From Trinickia caryophylli (GTDB lineage Bacteria; Pseudomonadota; Gammaproteobacteria; Burkholderiales; Burkholderiaceae): a DNA stretch of 64,000 bases. Location of the stretch: the NCBI RefSeq assembly GCF_034424545.1, contig NZ_CP139970.1, positions 248,001 to 312,000 of the forward strand, written 5' to 3'. The notes beneath the pieces are model-generated. The model was not told the origin of the DNA and did not search any database. It saw only the letters and a list, made by a program, of their open reading frames with translations. How positions within the stretch are numbered: position 1 is the stretch's first letter; every line of letters starts with the position of its first letter. Shown here piece by piece: positions 2,339 to 14,911 of the stretch. The position numbers were made by a program, and so were the translations under genes.

Positions 2339-3046
2339 TCAGCTCTGTTTGCGCAGCGCCATGACCCGTTCCAACGATGCCTTCAGGTGGCGCTGCATCG
2401 CCGCCTGCGCCTGCACGGCGTCGTGCGCCTCGAGCGCATCGAGGATTTCCGCGTGCTCCGCCAGCGCCGCGCGCCATGTGCTTTCGCTTTCGAAGTGCCC
2501 GCGCAGCTTCGTCGAAAGCGGGCTATGCCGCTCGTCGAACAGCGAGCCGATCATACGCACGACGACCTCGTTGCCCGACATCTGCGCAATGGCCATGTGA
2601 AACGCCCGGTCCATCGCAATCGGCACCGCTCCCGCGTCCACCTCCTGCGCCATCTTCTCGAAGATCGACCGCAGCGCCTTCAACGCCTTCGGCTTCGCGA
2701 ACGGCGCGACGCTCGCCGCCACGGCCCCTTCGATGAGCGAGCGAGCGCCCATGATGTCGACGAGGCTGTCGCCGAGTTCGCTCTCGCCCGGCGCACTGGC
2801 GCCCGCGGCTTGCGACGCCGCGCACACGTATACGCCCGAACCCCCGCGAATCTCGACGCGGCCCTCCAGCTCCAGCGCCACGAGCGCCTCGCGCACGGAC
2901 GGCCGCGAGACGCCGAGCCGTTCGGCCAGTTCGCGCTCGGGCGGCAGGCGGCCGTTGCGTGCGAAGTCGGGCTGGGCCATCAGCGCGCGCAGTTTGTCGG
3001 CGATTTGCAGGTAAAGGCGGCGGGTCTCGGCGGGTTTGGCTGCCAC
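2339..3046 (-). CDS. FadR-subfamily GntR regulator, probable repressor of the adjacent sugar-acid operon
   Basis: A 235-residue GntR-family protein. The winged helix at about residues 8-75 contains NGRLPPERELAERLGVSRPS and VREALVALELEGRVEIRGGSGVYV. The rest is an all-helical FCD effector domain, with metal-binding type His residues in AFHMAIAQMSGN and in the ALEAHDAVQAQAAMQRHL helix. It starts with GTG at 3046, with AGGAACC about 8 bases upstream. The gene is divergent from a hexuronate-type operon; UxuR/ExuR/LgoR regulators of such pathways belong to this subfamily. The paired operators at 3236-3289 fit its expected TGG...CCA recognition. It is probably a repressor released by a sugar acid (inference). 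Confidence 0.85.
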   Translation of the reverse strand: MAAKPAETRRLYLQIADKLRALMAQPDFARNGRLPPERELAERLGVSRPSVREALVALELEGRVEIRGGSGVYVCAASQAAGASAPGESELGDSLVDIMGARSLIEGAVAASVAPFAKPKALKALRSIFEKMAQEVDAGAVPIAMDRAFHMAIAQMSGNEVVVRMIGSLFDERHSPLSTKLRGHFESESTWRAALAEHAEILDALEAHDAVQAQAAMQRHLKASLERVMALRKQS

Positions 3047-3385
3047 GTAACGGTTCCTGTCGATGAGCGGGGCGAGCGCTCGAAGCGCGGCGCCGATTTA
3101 TCCGCCGATTTGTCCGATTTGTGCAACTCGCTCGGCTTGCCGGTTTTCGGCAGGCACTTGCGGCTGTTGCCGAATCGGCGGTCCATGGGGCGGCGATTTT
3201 AAATCGAACCAGCGAGCGTGCAAACGCCGCCAATGTGGCCTGACCAGTGAGCAATAGGTACTACCCCCAATCAAATTGGCTTGACCAGTTCCCAGGGATT
3301 TTATATTTTGCTAACCGGTAAGGCCAAACGAATATTTCCGGACGCCAGTTGGCGGCCGGCACTCGCCTCCGTCACCCGAGTCCCC
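3047..3385. promoter_or_regulatory. Control region of the sugar-acid operon with twin putative operators
   Basis: A gene-free 339 bp between the divergent regulator and the operon. Two 13-bp near-identical elements TGGCCTGACCAGT (3236-3248) and TGGCTTGACCAGT (3277-3289) start 41 bp apart, close to four helical turns. Each is an imperfect TGG/CCA palindrome of the FadR-family kind. The downstream copy overlaps the -35 element of the promoter at 3281-3309. Both are therefore well placed for cooperative repression by the regulator encoded at 2339-3046. Confidence 0.65.
3281..3309 (+). promoter_or_regulatory. Probable sigma-70 promoter of the sugar-acid operon
   Basis: TTGACC (3281-3286), a 17-bp spacer, then TATTTT (3304-3309). 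The -35 box lies inside the second putative operator. The start codon of the first operon gene is at 3386, leaving a leader of about 70 nt. Confidence 0.6.
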
Positions 3386-4408
3386 ATGAAAACCGTCATT
3401 TGCGAACAACCGGGCAAGCTTGCCCTTGCCGAACGGCCCATTCCCGAAACCGGTCCCGACGATGTGCTTTTGCGGATCAAACGTGTGGGCGTCTGCGGCA
3501 CCGATCTGCACATCTTCACAGGCAATCAGCCCTACCTTGCGTATCCGCGCGTAATGGGCCACGAACTCGCCGGCATCGTCGAGTCGGCCCCGGCCGGTGC
3601 CCGTGTCGCCGCTGGCGATCAGGTCTACGTCATGCCGTACATCTCCTGTGGCCACTGCGTCGCATGCCGCGCAGGCAAGACGAACTGCTGCGTCAACATC
3701 CAGGTGCTGGGCGTGCACGCGGACGGCGGCATGACCGAGTATCTGGCCGTACCGCAGGCCTTCGTGTTCAAGGCCGATGGCGTGACCCTCGATCAGGCTG
3801 CGATGCTCGAGTTTCTCGCCATTGGCGCTCATGCGGTCGCACGCGCCGACGTCGCTGCGGCTCAACGCGCGCTCGTGGTCGGGGCGGGCCCGATCGGCAT
3901 GGCGGCCGCGCTGTTCGCGAAGCTGCGCGGCGCGCAGGTGTGCGTGCTCGACTCGCGCGCCGACCGGCTCGCCGTCTGCGCGCAGGCGCTCGGGGCCGAT
4001 CACACGGTCGTGCTCGATACGAGCGGTGCGGCAGCCGACGCCAGGCGTCTCGCCGAGCTGACCGGCAACGAGTTCTTCGACGTGGTCTTCGATGCGACGG
4101 GCAATATCAAGGCGATGGAACGCGGGCTCGATTTCGTCGCGCACGGCGGCAAGTACGTACTGATCTCGATCGTGCGCGACCGCCTATCGTTCTCGGATCC
4201 GGAGTTCCACAAGCGCGAGACCACGCTGCTGGCGAGCCGCAACGCGACACCGGCCGACTTCGAAACCGTACTCGAAGCAATGCGCGCGGGGCGCGTGCCC
4301 ACCGATGCGCTCAATACGCACCGGCTCGCGCTCGCGGAGCTGCCCGACGAGTTTCCGAAGCTGCTCGATCCGAACGCGGGCGTGATCAAAGCGCTCGTCG
4401 CCTGCTGA
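3386..4408 (+). CDS. Zinc-dependent sugar-acid/polyol dehydrogenase (MDR family)
   Basis: A 340-residue medium-chain dehydrogenase. The catalytic zinc ligands are in GVCGTDLHIF and the following GHE. The four-Cys structural zinc loop is CGHCVACRAGKTNCC, and the NAD(P)-binding turn is VVGAGPIGMAAAL. Close relatives include RspB/LgoD-type enzymes that oxidise L-gulonate or L-galactonate at C5 to fructuronate or tagaturonate. The company it keeps (reductase, transporter, two sugar-acid dehydratases) supports such a role, but the substrate is inferred. It is the first gene of the operon, with 22 bp to the next. The ATG at 3386 is chosen because the Rossmann-family N-terminus MKTVICEQPGKLAL begins there. 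Confidence 0.8.
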   Translation: MKTVICEQPGKLALAERPIPETGPDDVLLRIKRVGVCGTDLHIFTGNQPYLAYPRVMGHELAGIVESAPAGARVAAGDQVYVMPYISCGHCVACRAGKTNCCVNIQVLGVHADGGMTEYLAVPQAFVFKADGVTLDQAAMLEFLAIGAHAVARADVAAAQRALVVGAGPIGMAAALFAKLRGAQVCVLDSRADRLAVCAQALGADHTVVLDTSGAAADARRLAELTGNEFFDVVFDATGNIKAMERGLDFVAHGGKYVLISIVRDRLSFSDPEFHKRETTLLASRNATPADFETVLEAMRAGRVPTDALNTHRLALAELPDEFPKLLDPNAGVIKALVAC

Positions 4409-4430
4409 TCCGCCACCGAAACGAACCGTC

Positions 4431-5561
4431 ATGGGCAATCCGATACTTCAATTCGGCACAAGCCGCTTCCTGCAGGCACACGCCGATCTTTTCATCGCCG
4501 AAGCGCTCGAAGCCGGGCGCGCGCTCGGGCAAGTCACGGTCGTACAGACGACGAGCAACCCCGAGAGCCGCGCGCGCATCGAGGCGCTGCGCACGCGCGG
4601 CAGCTATCCCGTGCGCATCCGCGGGCTGCGCCGCGAAGCCGTCGTCGATACGACCGTCGAATCGCGCGCGGTCAGCGAGGCACTCGACGCGAACGCTGAT
4701 TGGCCGCTTGTGGTCGAGCGCTTCGTTCACGATGCCCGCGTCGTCATCTCGAATACGAGCGACAGCGGCTATGCATGCTTCCCGGAAGACACGGCGCAAT
4801 TGCTCGCGCCCGGCGCCGGCGTGCCGCGCGGGTTCGCCGCCAAACTGGTCGTCTTGCTCCGCGCGCGGTATGCGGCAAACGCCGCCCCGCTCACGTTGCT
4901 GCCGTGCGAACTCGTCTCGAACAATGGCGACACGCTGCGCGCGCTCGTCGCCGGGCTCGCGCACGAGTGGACCGGCGACGAGGCATTCGAGCGCTACGTC
5001 GAACACACCTGCGTCTGGGTCAACTCGCTCGTCGACCGCATCGTGTCCGAGCCGATCCGCCCCGTCGGTGCCGTTGCCGAGCCGTACGCGTTGTGGGCCA
5101 TCGAACGGCGCCCCGGGATGGTGCTGCCCTGCGAGCACGACGCGATGATCGTGACCGACGATCTCGCGCATTACGAACGGCTCAAGCTGCTGCTGCTCAA
5201 CCTCGGGCATACCTTTCTTGCCGAGCGCTGGCTCACCGATGGTCGCCCCGCCGACGAAAACACGCTGCAGGCGATGCGCGACCCAGCGTTGCGCGGCGAG
5301 CTGGAAGGTCTCTGGCAGGAGGAAGTGCTGCCGGTGTTCGACGCGCTCGGGCAAGGCGAAACGGCCCGCCGCTATCTAGCCGACGTGCGCGAGCGCTTCG
5401 AGAACCCATTTCTCGATCACAAGCTCGCCGATATCGCGCGCAACCACCAGGAAAAAAAGCTGCGCCGGCTGCGGCCCGTGGTCGAGCTCGCCGCCTCCCT
5501 CGGCCTGAAGCTTGCTCAACCGCGGCTGAACGAAGCGCTGCGAACGAACGCCTTGGCCTGA
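4431..5561 (+). CDS. Mannitol-dehydrogenase family reductase, UxaB/UxuB type (tagaturonate or fructuronate reductase)
   Basis: A 376-residue long-chain polyol dehydrogenase. It opens MGNPILQFGTSRFLQAHADL, the tagaturonate-reductase-like N-terminus. It has an NSLVDRIVS motif and C-terminal helices with the family's conserved Lys (LDHKLADIARNHQEKKLRRL). UxaB reduces D-tagaturonate to D-altronate; UxuB reduces D-fructuronate to D-mannonate. Dehydratases for both products are encoded just downstream, so one enzyme may serve both branches; sequence alone does not decide. At 376 residues it is shorter than E. coli UxaB/UxuB (about 480). It is the second gene of the operon, in phase with the others. 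Confidence 0.75.
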   Translation: MGNPILQFGTSRFLQAHADLFIAEALEAGRALGQVTVVQTTSNPESRARIEALRTRGSYPVRIRGLRREAVVDTTVESRAVSEALDANADWPLVVERFVHDARVVISNTSDSGYACFPEDTAQLLAPGAGVPRGFAAKLVVLLRARYAANAAPLTLLPCELVSNNGDTLRALVAGLAHEWTGDEAFERYVEHTCVWVNSLVDRIVSEPIRPVGAVAEPYALWAIERRPGMVLPCEHDAMIVTDDLAHYERLKLLLLNLGHTFLAERWLTDGRPADENTLQAMRDPALRGELEGLWQEEVLPVFDALGQGETARRYLADVRERFENPFLDHKLADIARNHQEKKLRRLRPVVELAASLGLKLAQPRLNEALRTNALA

Positions 5562-8620: not shown

Positions 8621-9664
8621 ATGAAAATGACGTTTCGCTGGTACGGCGACACCGATCCCGTGCCGCTCGCCTACATCAGGCAGATACCGGGCATGCAGGG
8701 CATCGTGTCCGCAATCTACGACGTACCCGTCGGCGAAGTCTGGCCGATCGAGAAGATTCGCGCGCTCAAGGAAAAGATCGAGGCGCACGGCCTCGCGCTC
8801 GAAGTGATCGAGAGCGTGCCCGTGCACGAGGACGTCAAGCTCGGCAAGCCGAGCCGCGACCGGTTCATCGCGAACTATGCCGAGACGCTCGCGAACCTCG
8901 GCGCCTGCGGCGTGAAAGTGGTTTGCTACAACTTCATGCCCGTGTTCGACTGGACACGCACCTCGCTGGAAATGAAACTGCCCGACGGTTCCTCGACGCT
9001 CGCATTCGACGCGAAAGCGGTGGACGCGCTCGATATCGACAACGGCATCGCCCTGCCCGGCTGGGACACGAGCTACCGACCCGAAGCGCTCAAGGCGCTG
9101 CTCGCCGAGTACGCCACCCTCGACGAGGAAGGCTTGTGGTCCAATCTCGCTTACTTCCTGCGCGCCATCGTGCCCGCGGCCAAGGAAGCCGGAATCCGGA
9201 TGGCCATTCATCCCGACGATCCGCCGCGCCCCATTTTCGGGTTGCCCCGCATCGTCAAGAATCGCGACGATCTCGCGCGGCTGCTTGCCATCGTCGACGA
9301 TCCGGCAAACGGGCTCACCCTCTGTTCCGGCTCGCTCGGCGCCGACGAACGCAACGACATCGCCGCACTCGTGCGCGAGTTCGGCGGCCGCGGCCGGATC
9401 CATTTCGCGCATCTGCGCAACGTCAAGACGACGCCGGACGGCGACTTCCACGAGACGGCGCATCGCTCGGCCGACGGCTCGCTCGACATGGCCGAAATCC
9501 TGAAAGCGTATTTCGAAATCGGCTTCGACGGTTATGCCCGGCCCGACCATGGACGAATGATCTGGGGAGAAACCGGTCGCCCGGGCTACGGCCTCTATGA
9601 TCGCGCGCTCGGCGCCGTTTATCTCAACGGAATCTGGGAAGGACTGCACAAAACCGGAACGTGA
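8621..9664 (+). CDS. uxuA: D-mannonate dehydratase
   Basis: A 347-residue UxuA-type TIM-barrel enzyme. It begins [12 protein letters not shown] after a second in-frame ATG at 8627. Visible family motifs are [30 protein letters not shown], the metal-binding [22 protein letters not shown] and HFAHLRNV. It removes water from D-mannonate to give 2-keto-3-deoxygluconate using Mn2+/Fe2+. The length matches the shorter Gram-positive type (about 350) rather than the 394 residues of E. coli UxuA. AAAAGGA lies about 10 bases before the ATG at 8621. It is the last gene of the operon; no KDG kinase, KDPG aldolase or uronate isomerase is nearby. Confidence 0.9.
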
Positions 9665-9665
9665 C

Positions 9666-9691
9666 GGTGGGTAGGTAGGTGGGTAGGTAGG
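9666..9691 (+). repeat. Tandem 12-bp G-rich repeat (possible two-tier G-quadruplex)
   Basis: GGTGGGTAGGTA occurs twice in a row, followed by GG, giving nine runs of two or three G within 26 bases. It lies immediately after the uxuA stop codon and about 30 bp before the LexA box of the next operon. It could fold as a two-tier G-quadruplex on the coding strand, but no function is shown. Confidence 0.6.
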
Positions 9692-9722
9692 AACGACCGG
9701 CTGGCACTGTCTGCTATCATAC

Positions 9723-9738
9723 CTGTACAGATATACAG
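9723..9738. promoter_or_regulatory. LexA (SOS) box
   Basis: CTGTACAGATATACAG is CTGT-N8-ACAG, the canonical 16-bp LexA operator. It is part of the longer inverted repeat ACCTGTA/TACAGGT. It ends 11 bp before the GTG start of the nuclease gene, so LexA binding here would cover the promoter/start region. A -10-like TATCAT is at 9715-9720. DNA damage should therefore induce the 9750-13741 operon. Confidence 0.85.
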
Positions 9739-9749
9739 GTTCTTCTCCC

Positions 9750-11492
9750 GTGCAGCCCGATGCCCGTTCCTTCTACTATCTGCTGAATTTCGAGCGCGCG
9801 CTCGCATGGCTCTCGGCGCGCTACGCGGATCTGCTGGCCGCCGAGGAGCGGGATTTCATCGCCGGATTCGCCGCGCTGCCGCTGCCCTCGCGCGCGTTGC
9901 TCGTGCGCATGCTGATGCGCAAGGGCAACCTCTTTCGCGCAAGCCGGCTCGTCTATCCCGAGATCGGCAGCAGCCTGGACGCCGCCGCGCCGCTCGTCGG
10001 CCTCGGCTGGCTCGAGCGCGACCCCACCGTCGACGCAGACGAACTGGGCGCGTTGCTCACCCGCACGGAACTGCTCTCGCTGGTGGGCAACGCCCAGGCA
10101 CAGCGAACCAGCCGCAAGACGGCGCTCGTTGATGCGGTGCGCGCCGCCTTTCCCGAAGCGGCGCAGCCGTACAGCGCCTGGGGCGCGCCCGATATCGCGC
10201 TGAGCGTCACGATCGCCGCGCTCTGCGAACGGCTGCGGCTGCTCTTTTTCGGCAATCTGCATCAAACGTGGTCCGAGTTCGTGCTGGCGGATCTGGGCGT
10301 CTATCAGTACGAGGCCGTTTCGTTCGAGCCGTCTGCGCGCGCGTTCCAGCAACGCGCCGACGTCGACGCTTACCTCGCGCTCGCGGCGTGCCGCGACGCC
10401 CTCGAACTGCTGGCCGCGCAGGATCCGCATCGCGAGCCCGAAGCCGCAGCGGCGCTCTTCGTGGAGGTGATGTCGATCGAGATCGCCGGCGACTGGCTCG
10501 AGATGCGCCGCGCGAAGCTGCTGTACCGGCTCGGCTATCGCGCCGAACAAATCGGAGCGTGGAGTCTCGCGCTCGACGCCTATGCAGCCAGCCGGTGGCC
10601 CGATGCGCGGTATCGGCGCGCCCGGGTGCTCGAGCGTCGCGGCTGCTTCAGCGAAGCGTTCGACATGGCGAGCCGCGCTGCGTGTGCGCCCGAGAGCGAA
10701 GCGGAACAGCAGCGGCTTGCGCGCATGCTCCCGCGGCTGAGGCGCCGACTGGGCCTGCCGGTGCAGCGCCCGGCCGCCGCGCCGCGCATCGAACGAAGTA
10801 CGCTCGTGCTCGATCGGCCCGAGGACGCGGCATCGGTCGAAGAGGTCGTGCGCAATCACCTGCATGTGCCCGACGCCCCCACTTTCTACGTCGAAAACGC
10901 GCTCATCAATTCCCTCTTTGGCCTGCTTTGCTGGGAAGCCGTCTTCGCGCCGCTGCCGGGCGCCTTTTTTCACCCGTTTCAGCGCGGCCCCGCCGACTTG
11001 CACGCGCCCGATTTCCGCACACGCCGCGCCGAGCGCTTCGCGCAGTGCTTCTCGCAGTTGGAGAGCGGTGCCTATCGCACAACGATCACACGGCACATGC
11101 AAACGAAAGCGGGTATCCAGTCCCCGTTCGTGTTTTGGGGCGTGCTTACACCGGAATTGGTTTCGCTTGCGCTCGACTGCCTGCCGGCCGAGCATCTGAA
11201 GCACTGCTTCGCCCGCCTCTCCGACGATATCCGTGCCAACCGTTCGGGCCTGCCCGATCTGATCCGCTTCTGGCCGGCCGAAAAGCGCTACGAGCTGATC
11301 GAAGTAAAAGGCCCCGGTGATCGTCTGCAGGACAATCAAATCCGTTGGCTCGCCTATTGCGCACGCGTGGGCATACCCGTGAGCGTGGTCGACGTACGTT
11401 GGCGCGAAGCAGCCGCGGCCGCTGAAGCCGCTGAAGCCGCCGAAGCCGCCACTGCAATCGAGCCGGCGCCAGCGGGCGGAGCCGCGGCATGA
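9750..11492 (+). CDS. FAN1-like structure-specific nuclease with VRR-NUC domain
   Basis: A 580-residue protein. Its C-terminus (about residues 490-550) is a VRR-NUC PD-(D/E)XK nuclease with catalytic D503 (GLPDLIRFWP) and E518-x-K520 (ELIEVKGPGDRLQDNQ). The preceding region (FYVENALINSLFGLLCWEAV, HPFQRGPADL, TPELVSLALDCL) matches bacterial FAN1, and the N-terminal half is helical, as in the SAP/TPR part of FAN1. FAN1 enzymes cut near 5' flaps and unhook interstrand crosslinks. The start is GTG at 9750, next to the LexA box. The C-terminus has a low-complexity Ala/Glu tail. Its stop overlaps the helicase start by 4 bp (ATGA), indicating translational coupling. Confidence 0.88.
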   Translation: MQPDARSFYYLLNFERALAWLSARYADLLAAEERDFIAGFAALPLPSRALLVRMLMRKGNLFRASRLVYPEIGSSLDAAAPLVGLGWLERDPTVDADELGALLTRTELLSLVGNAQAQRTSRKTALVDAVRAAFPEAAQPYSAWGAPDIALSVTIAALCERLRLLFFGNLHQTWSEFVLADLGVYQYEAVSFEPSARAFQQRADVDAYLALAACRDALELLAAQDPHREPEAAAALFVEVMSIEIAGDWLEMRRAKLLYRLGYRAEQIGAWSLALDAYAASRWPDARYRRARVLERRGCFSEAFDMASRAACAPESEAEQQRLARMLPRLRRRLGLPVQRPAAAPRIERSTLVLDRPEDAASVEEVVRNHLHVPDAPTFYVENALINSLFGLLCWEAVFAPLPGAFFHPFQRGPADLHAPDFRTRRAERFAQCFSQLESGAYRTTITRHMQTKAGIQSPFVFWGVLTPELVSLALDCLPAEHLKHCFARLSDDIRANRSGLPDLIRFWPAEKRYELIEVKGPGDRLQDNQIRWLAYCARVGIPVSVVDVRWREAAAAAEAAEAAEAATAIEPAPAGGAAA

Positions 11493-13741
11493 GCTATGTC
11501 GTCGCCGTGCGAACGCTTTGCGAGTTCACGGCCAAATGCGGCGATCTCGACCTGCGCTTCACGCCTGCCCCGACCGCGCTCGAGGGCATGGCCGGACACG
11601 CCAAGGCGGCGGCGAGACGAGGCAGCGAGTACGAGGCCGAGATCGCGTTGTCGGGCGAATACGGCGTGCTGACCGTCCGGGGCCGGGCCGATGGGTACGA
11701 CGCGCGCGAGAACCGGCTCGACGAAGTGAAGACCTACCGCGGCGAGCTCGACGCGATGCCGGCAAACCACCGGGCGCTGCACTGGGCTCAGGCGCGCATC
11801 TACGGGCACTTGCTCTGCCACATGCGCGGCCTTGTCTCGATTTCGATCGCCCTCGTCTACTTCGATATCGCCAGCGAACGCGAAACCGTGCTCAGCGAAG
11901 CGTGGGAGGCAACGGCGCTCGAAGCGTTTTTCAAGCAGCAGTGCGAACGGTTCGTCGAATGGGCCGAACAAGAGGATGCGCACCGGCACGCACGCGACGC
12001 GGCGCTGCGCGCCCTCGCATTCCCGTTTCCCCGGTTCCGCAGCGGCCAGCGCGAGTTGGCCGTCTCCGTCTACCGCACCGCTCGCGATGCGGGCGTACTC
12101 ATGGCGCAGGCACCGACGGGCATCGGCAAGACACTTGCGACCCTCTTTCCGGCGCTCAAAGCCTGCGGCGAGGGGCACATCGAGCGCATCTTCTTCCTGA
12201 CGGCGAAAACGTCCGGTCGAGCGCTCGCGCTCGACGCCGTCGACGCGCTTCATGCAAGCACCCCCGCGTTGCCACTGCGCACACTCGAGCTCGTCGCGCG
12301 CGACAAGGCCTGCGTACATCCGGACAAGGCCTGCCACGGCGAATCATGTCCGCTCGCTCGCGGTTTTTACGACCGTCTTGCGGCCGCGCGGCGCGACGCG
12401 CTCGGCGAGGCACGCCTCGATCGGGCGACGCTTGCCCGCGTGGCGCAGGCTCACGACGTCTGCCCCTACTATCTCGGGCAGGAACTCGCGCGCTGGTGCG
12501 ACATCGTGGTCGGCGACTACAACTACTACTACGATGGCAGTGCGCTGCTCTACGCCCTGACGCGACTCAACCAATGGCGCGTGGCAGTACTCGTCGACGA
12601 GGCCCACAACCTGCTCGAGCGGGGCCGCAGGATGTATACGGCCGCGCTCGAGCAAACTGCCTTGCGTGCGGCGACGAAATCGGCGCCACCGCCCCTGAAA
12701 AAGCCCCTGCAACGCGTCGCACGCGCGTGGCGAGCGGCCGTTCGGGAGCAAGCGGCACGCTACGCCGTGCTCGAGGCCGTTCCGCCGCGGTTGGTCGACG
12801 CCGCGCAGCGGTTCGCGAGCGCCGTGAGCGATCACCTCGCTCAGCAGCCTGGGGCGATCGAAGCGACACTGCTGGACTTCTTCTTCGATGTGCTGCGGTT
12901 CGTCTCGCTCGCCGAACAGTTCGGCGATCACTCGATCGTCGACAGCATCGTCGATGCGCGCGGTGGCAACCGCCATGCGACGCTCAGCATCCGCAACGTG
13001 ATTCCAGGCGCCTTTCTCGCCACGCGGCACGCTGCCGCGCAGGCGACAGTCCTGTTCTCGGGCACGTTGAGCCCCGCGCCGTTTTACCGCGACACGCTCG
13101 GCCTGCCGGACACCACGTGCACCCTCGACGTCGAGGGCCCGTTCAGGCCCGAGCAGCTCAGCGTGCGCGTGGCGGCCCATGTTTCCACGCGCTGGCGCGA
13201 CCGCGACAAGTCGCTCGCACCGATCGCGGATCTGGTCGCGCAACAGTACGCCGGGCGCCCCGGCAACTATCTGGCGTTTCTGAGCAGCTTCGACTATCTC
13301 GAGCGCGTGGCCGCGCTAATCCGCGAGCGGCATCCGGCGCTGCCGCTGTGGACGCAGGCACCGCGCATGGACGAAGCGCAACGCGACGCGTTTATCGCCC
13401 GATTTCGCGAAGGCGGGCGCGGCGTAGGCCTCGCCGTACTCGGCGGCGCCTTCTCCGAAGGGGTCGATCTCGTCGGCGAGCGCTTGATCGGTGCGTTCAT
13501 CGCCACGCTCGGGATGCCGCAGGTCAACGAGATCAACGAACAGATGCGCCGCGCGATGGACGCCCGCTTCGGCAACGGCTACGACTACACCTACCTGTTC
13601 CCGGGACTGCAGAAAGTCGTGCAGGCGGCGGGACGCGTCGTGCGAACCGAAAGCGACACCGGTGTGCTGCATCTGATCGACGACCGCTACCTGCGCGCCG
13701 ACGTACGCCGTCTCTTGCCGCGCTGGTGGGCGTTTGCTTGA
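11489..13741 (+). CDS. XPD/DinG-type DNA helicase with N-terminal RecB-like nuclease domain
   Basis: A 750-residue superfamily-2 helicase. Walker A is APTGIGKT (K214). An iron-sulfur type four-Cys set follows (DKACVHPDKACHGESC, then HDVCPYY). The DEAH box is VLVDEAHNL, LFSGTLSP is motif III-like, and motif VI is QAAGRVVRTE. Ahead of it, residues 1-160 carry a PD-(D/E)XK pattern: GRADGYD (D68), DEVKTY (E79, K81) and QARIY (Q101), as in Cas4/RecB nucleases. The protein probably unwinds DNA 5' to 3' and may also cut it. It is coupled to the FAN1-like gene under one LexA box. It is the last gene of the operon, convergent with the iron-exporter gene. Confidence 0.88.
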   Translation: MSYVVAVRTLCEFTAKCGDLDLRFTPAPTALEGMAGHAKAAARRGSEYEAEIALSGEYGVLTVRGRADGYDARENRLDEVKTYRGELDAMPANHRALHWAQARIYGHLLCHMRGLVSISIALVYFDIASERETVLSEAWEATALEAFFKQQCERFVEWAEQEDAHRHARDAALRALAFPFPRFRSGQRELAVSVYRTARDAGVLMAQAPTGIGKTLATLFPALKACGEGHIERIFFLTAKTSGRALALDAVDALHASTPALPLRTLELVARDKACVHPDKACHGESCPLARGFYDRLAAARRDALGEARLDRATLARVAQAHDVCPYYLGQELARWCDIVVGDYNYYYDGSALLYALTRLNQWRVAVLVDEAHNLLERGRRMYTAALEQTALRAATKSAPPPLKKPLQRVARAWRAAVREQAARYAVLEAVPPRLVDAAQRFASAVSDHLAQQPGAIEATLLDFFFDVLRFVSLAEQFGDHSIVDSIVDARGGNRHATLSIRNVIPGAFLATRHAAAQATVLFSGTLSPAPFYRDTLGLPDTTCTLDVEGPFRPEQLSVRVAAHVSTRWRDRDKSLAPIADLVAQQYAGRPGNYLAFLSSFDYLERVAALIRERHPALPLWTQAPRMDEAQRDAFIARFREGGRGVGLAVLGGAFSEGVDLVGERLIGAFIATLGMPQVNEINEQMRRAMDARFGNGYDYTYLFPGLQKVVQAAGRVVRTESDTGVLHLIDDRYLRADVRRLLPRWWAFA

Positions 13742-13783
13742 TACGCGTCCGGCACGCCCGCATTGCACCGCCGTGCCCGAACG

Positions 13784-14911
13784 TCAGGAGACCGAGACGC
13801 CGAGCAGTCTTCCCACGCCGAATGTGAACGCGGCGGCGACGAGCCCGATCGCAACCTGACGCAGCGCGGAGAACGCCGCACCGCGCCCGTTGAACAGCGA
13901 CGTGAACACGCCGATAGCCGCAAGCGCTGCCGCGCTGAACGCCGTGCACTGCGCAATGGCATTGACGCCGTGCGCCCAGACGAAGGGCAGCGCAGGAAAG
14001 ATTGCGCCGACGGAAAAAAGCCCGAACGAAACAGCCGCGGCGGACCAGGGGTTGCCGCCGAGTTCGGCCGGGTCGAGGCCCAGTTCCTCGCGCGTAAGCG
14101 TATCGAGGGCCTTGTCCTTGTCGCGCATGAGTTGCGAAGCGACGCGGTGCGCACTCGCACGGTCGAGGCCTTTCGCGCGGTAGATCAAATAGAGTTCCCG
14201 TTGCTCCGATGCGGGGGCCATCGTCAGTTCGTCCGCTTCCTTGGCGATCTGCGTGCGCGCAAGTTCGCGCGCGTTCGTCACGGACAGCCATTCGCCGAGC
14301 GCCATCGACGACGCACCCGCTATCAGCCCGGCAAAGCCCGTGAGCAGGATGGACGGGTTCGCCGCGCCGGCCCCGGCCACGCCCATGATCAGGCAGAAGT
14401 TCGAGACGAGACCGTCGTTGGCGCCGAGCACCGCCGCGCGCAGGTCGTTGCCCGACGACACGCCCCGGTGCCACGATTCCGCTGCCGCGATGCGCGCACC
14501 CTGCGTCATGCCCGGCGACTCGGTATGCGCGAGCTCCTGCACGATGCCGGCGTGATAGCGTTCTTCGGCGGAAAGGCCCCCTGCGTCGGGCTGGCCCGCA
14601 TACTTGTTGCGATCGGCATACTCGGCGGCGGCGAGCGCGGGCAGCACGAAACGCGGGCCGAACAGGCGCACGAGCCCTTGCATGAGAACGGTCTTGATCG
14701 CTGGGCCAGGATGGGGCCGCGCGGCACCACACGCTTCGAGCTTGCTCGCCCACACGCGTGCATGCTCGCGTTCCGACTTCGCCAGTTCCCGGAAAACGTC
14801 CTTGCGCACGGAATCGCGCTCGACACGAGCGAGCGTGTCGTAGAGCGCCGCACTGTGCAGTTCGTCCGTCAGGTTAGCCCGATACCGCTTGATTTCCTGC
14901 TTCGAAGCCAT
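13784..14911 (-). CDS. mbfA: Ferritin-like/VIT iron exporter (MbfA type)
   Basis: A 375-residue two-domain protein. Residues 1-145 form a rubrerythrin/ferritin-like helical bundle with Glu and His ligands (LTDELHSAALYDTLARVE, KSEREHARVWASKLEACG, EERYHAGIVQELAHTE). Residues 150-375 are a VIT1/CCC1-type membrane domain starting GNDLRAAVLGANDGLVSNF, with about five hydrophobic helices. This is the architecture of MbfA, an inner-membrane iron (or manganese) exporter that limits iron toxicity and peroxide damage. The internal ATG at 14911 is chosen because the conserved MASKQEIKRYRANL begins there, after AAAGGCGGCGAG. No Irr or Fur box was recognised upstream. Confidence 0.85.
   Translation of the reverse strand: MASKQEIKRYRANLTDELHSAALYDTLARVERDSVRKDVFRELAKSEREHARVWASKLEACGAARPHPGPAIKTVLMQGLVRLFGPRFVLPALAAAEYADRNKYAGQPDAGGLSAEERYHAGIVQELAHTESPGMTQGARIAAAESWHRGVSSGNDLRAAVLGANDGLVSNFCLIMGVAGAGAANPSILLTGFAGLIAGASSMALGEWLSVTNARELARTQIAKEADELTMAPASEQRELYLIYRAKGLDRASAHRVASQLMRDKDKALDTLTREELGLDPAELGGNPWSAAAVSFGLFSVGAIFPALPFVWAHGVNAIAQCTAFSAAALAAIGVFTSLFNGRGAAFSALRQVAIGLVAAAFTFGVGRLLGVSVS

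Follow-up and report, generated by a model that had tools for sequence, protein, structure and literature searches.

A conserved LexA operator at the gene pair for a FAN1 nuclease and an EndoDinG helicase in Trinickia caryophylli and other Burkholderiaceae

The window analysed here is a stretch of 64,000 nucleotides (nt) from Trinickia caryophylli (positions 248,001 to 312,000 of contig NZ_CP139970.1, assembly GCF_034424545.1). Within it we studied two overlapping genes, one for a FAN1-family nuclease and one for a nuclease-fused helicase of the EndoDinG type, which lie directly behind an operator for LexA. Their features, in window coordinates, are as follows.

9715-9720, + strand: probable −10 element TATCAT, separated from the LexA box by 2 nt; TATNAT is conserved in relatives
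9723-9738, + strand: LexA operator CTGTACAGATATACAG, a perfect CTGT-N8-ACAG
9750-11492, + strand: gene for the FAN1-family nuclease, 580 amino acids, GTG start, with FAN1_HTH, FANC_SAP and VRR_NUC Pfam domains and a match to 4r89
11064-11402, + strand: VRR-NUC catalytic domain of FAN1, residues 439-551 (D503, E518, K520)
11489-11492, + strand: ATGA stop/start overlap of the FAN1 and helicase genes
11489-13741, + strand: EndoDinG gene, for a nuclease-fused XPD/DinG-type iron-sulfur (Fe-S) helicase of 750 amino acids
11489-12022, + strand: N-terminal PD-(D/E)XK nuclease domain of EndoDinG, Cas4/EXO5/MGME1-like (H37, E51, D68, E79, K81, Q101, Y105)
12311-12463, + strand: Fe-S cysteines C275, C282, C287 and C325 of the helicase

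The layout is that described in the initial annotation of the sequence, with a perfect CTGT-N8-ACAG box that leaves a gap of 11 base pairs (bp) before the GTG of the first gene and an ATGA shared by the two reading frames. The box CTGTACAGATATACAG is the sole site of this pattern in the 64-kilobase (kb) window, in which shuffling gives an expectation of 0.18, and the 4-nt overlap is also the commonest arrangement of the gene pair among relatives, seen at 72 of the 99 loci measured.

Conservation of the operator was assessed in a sample of 299 Burkholderiaceae genomes. FAN1 is present in 96 of these, and we analysed them all, as 95 loci plus the window. In 91 of the 96 a perfect box starts no more than 100 bp upstream of where FAN1 homology begins, and three further perfect boxes occur elsewhere in these 1,035,192 bp of family loci. 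The five misses comprise three loci without a box (L088, L089 and L091), one at a contig edge (L092) and one with a partial FAN1 match (L117). The 91 sites represent 22 distinct sequences, and at two positions that the pattern leaves free the base is LexA-like, namely A5 in 22 of 22 and T12 in 20 of 22. Furthermore, in 88 of the 91 FAN1 loci TATNAT lies in the 16 nt preceding the box, as compared with 12 of 9600 random 16-nt stretches from the same loci; given this element just 5′ of the box, the transcription start most likely falls within it.

The lexA (TIGR00498) and imuA (NF033429) genes of the window genome were likewise each found directly downstream of such a box. The operon thereby shows both marks of a LexA regulon member, that is, a promoter operator whose motif matches that before the genome's own lexA and the retention of that operator in relatives. 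Control by LexA, as the initial annotation had proposed, is thus supported at the level of sequence by the conserved operator together with the lexA and imuA boxes. Conservation of the pair and its box across relatives, which had been set beforehand as a test of that proposal, held in all but a few genomes, with the three boxless loci belonging to a single genus (g12).

Further evidence comes from helicase genes that do not adjoin FAN1. At a threshold of E ≤ 1e-40, the helicase is present in 96 of the 96 FAN1 genomes of the family and in 68 of the 203 without FAN1 (a few of the latter matches are weak, up to 1.5e-41), which indicates that the helicase does not need FAN1. The two genes are adjacent in 92 of the 96 family loci and apart in the other four. 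The non-adjacent set that we examined comprised 40 loci, 36 of them from the 68 FAN1-less genomes and four from the split genomes, and in 38 of these the helicase is preceded by a perfect box that starts 24 to 187 nt upstream. No box was found at the helicase of L218, which is the only such case among the 40 besides L236. In the latter (genome G060, reverse complement 2576-5201), a perfect box is followed by a remnant of the N-terminal helix-turn-helix (HTH) region of FAN1 (residues 3-96) and then by a full-length helicase match, so that the nuclease has apparently been lost and the LexA box kept. Each gene has a box of its own in three of these four split genomes, and no other observation indicates as strongly that SOS control extends to the two genes individually rather than to the operon alone. 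The promoter layout does differ at helicase-only loci, as TATNAT was found at only 1 of 39 loci where the helicase lacks FAN1. Taken together, the conserved box, the TATNAT element, the boxes at helicase-only loci and those at lexA and imuA support an SOS operon very well.

With respect to the first protein, FAN1_HTH (residues 8-89; PF21315, 117.9 bits), FANC_SAP (95-144; PF18081, 40.6 bits) and VRR_NUC (439-551; PF08774, 115.3 bits) were all detected above the Pfam cut-offs, in one chain and in that order, as in the FAN1 family. The structure of Pseudomonas aeruginosa FAN1 (PaFAN1; PDB 4r89, also 5y7g) aligns over the full length of the protein (residues 7-552, E = 4.8e-168). The catalytic D503, E518 and K520, which the initial annotation had picked out in a VRR-NUC protein, occur in every one of the 85 aligned FAN1 sequences, and identical residues form the D…E-x-K of 4r89. 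Judged by these domains and residues, the protein is a FAN1 nuclease. To our knowledge, bacterial FAN1 is known mainly from structures. VRR-NUC gene neighbourhoods are said to have been treated by Iyer et al. in 2006. Several VRR-Nuc subfamilies, FAN1 included, have members that adjoin DNA-metabolism genes, according to PMC9635880. A second VRR_NUC match above the Pfam cut-off lies elsewhere in the same genome (G000:C1:2340958-2341113).

The second protein has the DEAD_2 and Helicase_C_2 Pfam domains, and its assignment as an XPD/DinG helicase in the initial annotation stands. Walker A K214 and the D370-E-A-H box are shared by at least 98% of 99 aligned helicases and are invariant in a further alignment of 34, and cysteines 275, 282, 287 and 325 are present in 99 of 99. 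In the nuclease domain, D68, E79 and K81 are likewise found in 99 of 99, H37 in 98 of 99 and E51 in 34 of 34. An AlphaFold2 model of this domain reached a mean predicted local distance difference test (pLDDT) score of 90.7 and matches 9kqh, SSO0001, MGME1, Cas4 and EXO5. The domain was folded alone because only the 9kqh row reaches the domain start in the VIA list of the full helicase model, in which residues 271-281 and 283-286, in the Fe-S cysteine region, score below 50.

A PD-(D/E)XK domain with H, E, D, E and K, a four-cysteine (CCCC) Fe-S motif and an XPD/DinG motor are the features that characterize the published EndoDinG subgroup, which is represented by the DinG proteins of Bdellovibrio bacteriovorus and Finegoldia magna (PDB 9kqh). 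With all of them in its sequence, the window helicase is a member of this subgroup. That 9kqh is itself an EndoDinG is our own reading, as the review PMC11981726 does not name it. The EndoDinG section of that review names no operon partner or LexA control, goes no further than suggesting a role in DNA repair or replication, and refers to unpublished data for the endonuclease activity. Three additional cysteines of the nuclease domain, C11 (window 11519-11521; 99 of 99), C110 (11816-11818; 98 of 99) and C152 (11942-11944; 99 of 99), are near-invariant as well. They have no aligned cysteine in 9kqh and possibly serve a structural function or form a second metal site.

The helicase is neither a canonical DinG (63.4 bits against an NCBIfam cut-off of 598) nor a canonical YoaA (89.1 against 680). 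It resembles E. coli DinG and YoaA in that these too are LexA-controlled Fe-S helicases of the XPD type, as stated in PMC11981726, but it falls far below both cut-offs. A separate YoaA (840 bits) is encoded at about 25 kb on C1 of the window genome. The genome-wide list of perfect boxes has none near this YoaA, the nearest on C1 being at 167,823.

In terms of function, we consider it probable that FAN1 and EndoDinG make up a two-gene SOS operon whose products act jointly in the processing of crosslinks or forks; a role at crosslinks or stalled forks can reasonably be inferred from the protein families. FAN1 cuts 5′ flaps and unhooks interstrand crosslinks, for which it suffices alone, and EndoDinG belongs to a family that moves 5′ to 3′ on single-stranded DNA and opens forks or R-loops. 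Bound to its operator (9723-9738), which follows closely on the −10 element and probably spans the transcription start, LexA would block expression. Upon DNA damage, RecA filaments would bring about the self-cleavage of LexA, and FAN1 and EndoDinG would then be produced together, with translation probably coupled via the ATGA overlap. Where a fork is blocked or a lesion lies, EndoDinG probably loads onto single-stranded DNA and would travel 5′ to 3′ by means of its Fe-S XPD motor, clearing a strand, RNA or protein in its path and potentially cutting with its Cas4/EXO5-like domain. FAN1 would subsequently cut near the 5′ flap, such that a crosslink is unhooked or a blocked fork opened, and the cut product would pass to recombination or translesion synthesis. 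The LexA mechanism, strand polarity, substrate and order of steps in this scheme are those that we infer from family knowledge.

A more specific version, which we put forward tentatively as a serious possibility, is that the pair constitutes an SOS-induced crosslink/fork route parallel to UvrABC, in which a 5′ to 3′ Fe-S helicase with a nuclease prepares the flap for FAN1. In such a route EndoDinG would form the conserved core, to which FAN1 would have been added as a specialist, and the pair would be the functional counterpart of the eukaryotic pairing of a FANCJ/XPD-type helicase with FAN1. The suggested parallel with human XPD and FAN1 in crosslink repair is a functional one, drawn by analogy only. 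Both enzymes are placed in the SOS response by the LexA operator, which the two genes share through most of the family and which each retains in three of the four genomes where they stand apart. Two poorly understood bacterial repair enzymes thereby gain a shared, testable job, for which a crosslinker and fork-stalling phenotype is predicted.

Several observations weigh against an SOS-induced joint function, both in the family and beyond it. The three g12 loci without a LexA box (L088, L089 and L091) have both genes and a TATCAT element, and the operon may be constitutive there. The separate helicase of one split genome (G045) has no box. In 9kqh an Ala occupies the position of D68 in the window protein, either as a natural loss or as a crystallized mutant, and the nuclease may accordingly not be used in all members of the subgroup. 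In a phylum-wide sample the helicase was found in 43 of 398 genomes, and at the 37 loci examined outside Burkholderiaceae a perfect box is present in just five; the five of these loci without FAN1, all from family f2, have no perfect box upstream of the helicase. A class-wide sample yielded FAN1 in 18 of 369 genomes, the window's own included. Among the other 17 loci, seven have no adjacent helicase match within a 1.5-kb flank, and perfect boxes were found at three.

The situation in P. aeruginosa points in both directions. Its FAN1 gene is PA1865, and we take PA1866, as a guess that could not be checked, to encode the helicase. PA1865 rises with ciprofloxacin and ultraviolet C (UV-C) light according to PMC8526614 and PMC12796719, a response to DNA damage that agrees with the SOS control proposed here, and PA1866 likewise responds to UV-C. 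On the opposing side, PMC12796719 reports that hydrogen peroxide represses PA1865, and it counts both PA1865 and PA1866 as genes for which no LexA-like repressor is known, in contrast to the perfect box at the window gene.

The gene pair itself extends beyond the family. FAN1 adjoins the helicase in 32 of the 37 loci of other families and in 10 of the 17 other class-sample FAN1 loci, and the FAN1-helicase order is held in eight families. In family f162, which we guess to be Pseudomonadaceae from a like box at the Halopseudomonas locus L023, a box with at most one mismatch occurs at 15 of 16 loci, and in 12 of them ACAG has become CCAG. Simple arithmetic that assumes even base composition puts the number of such weak matches expected by chance at about 0.1 per 280-nt stretch. 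In family f173, six of eight loci (L285, L287, L290, L297, L299 and L304) have ATGGATAAATGAACAG or ATGGATGCATGAACAG upstream of FAN1 in place of the LexA box, possibly the mark of another regulator. Three loci of family f145 (L196, L197 and L198) carry a distant FAN1 of about 25% identity, with no adjacent match to this helicase and with LexA-like boxes (one perfect, two with one mismatch), and SOS control of FAN1 may thus recur.

The strongest alternative to joint processing is that the two genes share an SOS switch and nothing more. EndoDinG would then be a general helicase-nuclease for R-loops, stalled forks and DNA ends, as are the DinG/YoaA helicases, FAN1 would act alone on crosslinks, and the operon would time their production without coupling their functions. 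The helicase of the 68 FAN1-less family genomes, the LexA box on the helicase at 35 of the 35 FAN1-less loci without a FAN1 trace, and the 7 of 17 class-sample FAN1 loci without an adjacent helicase are all in keeping with this account. Against it, FAN1 without the helicase was found in 0 of 96 family genomes, gene order is held across eight families, and both genes stay under LexA boxes in three of four split genomes; on balance we regard it as possible but unlikely to be the whole explanation. The initial annotation went further in the other direction and saw one stable FAN1-helicase repair complex, a helicase-driven unhooking machine. The tight operon with its recurrent 4-nt overlap and the co-occurrence of the helicase with FAN1 would fit such a complex. 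So would the correlated divergence of the two proteins (r = 0.97 for pairwise identities over 80 sequence sets), which mostly reflects shared ancestry. However, precomputed Pfam domains revealed no FAN1-helicase fusion in the 120 helicase homologues listed out of 7997, the genes are apart in 4 of 96 genomes, and the helicase is often found without FAN1 (68 of 203), which together render a stable complex rather improbable.

Considerably weaker is the case for an anti-phage or anti-plasmid module that, like CasDinG systems, would degrade invading DNA upon SOS induction. The helicase does match the PADLOC type IV DinG profile with 370 bits, but FAN1 has no PADLOC match, array-like repeats are absent from positions 1-30000 of the window, the flanking genes examined concern sugar metabolism, VIT1, a hydrolase, a sigma factor and chemotaxis, and no FAN1 match was found in 50,697 phage records. 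We therefore judge a defence role very unlikely. Plasmid records gave few matches (FAN1 in 14 and the helicase in 17 of 72,556), multi-megabase replicons among them, and hence no sign of a plasmid-borne module. CasDinG of type IV CRISPR (clustered regularly interspaced short palindromic repeats) systems was also considered and rejected, the seven flanking genes being unrelated and that part of the window free of array-like repeats; the search for csf genes was confined to this locus. Finally, a chance palindrome before a constitutive operon, suggested by the 36 perfect sites in the genome against 20 for a reversed control pattern, which imply that many single sites are due to chance, has next to no probability in view of the position-specific conservation of the box in relatives (91 of 96 genomes, 22 distinct sequences) and is rejected.

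Of the components discussed here, FAN1, EndoDinG and the LexA control of DinG and YoaA are already known. As early as 2012, LexA sites were predicted by a comparative study for the promoters of 'Helicase c2' genes in beta-proteobacteria, with Burkholderia, Ralstonia and Cupriavidus among its species, and this 'Helicase c2' is likely the helicase described here. In that study neither 'nuclease' nor 'dinG' occurs as a word start, and FAN1 thus seems undiscussed there. Literature searches, from which subscription papers were mostly absent, gave no account of an SOS operon that joins FAN1 and EndoDinG, of its operator conserved across the family or of split genomes in which each gene has a box.

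The neighbouring genes examined are unrelated to the gene pair. Upstream lie a gene of the mannitol dehydrogenase type and genes for altronate/galactarate and mannonate dehydratases, and downstream those for a VIT1 protein, a serine hydrolase, a sigma factor and a chemotaxis receptor. A generic sigma-70 scan of 9600-14000 returned no site, and a search of 9400-14200 returned no Rfam element at the gathering threshold. Just 5′ of the promoter, at 9666-9691, the window contains a G-rich repeat of the GGTAGGTGGGTAGG type.

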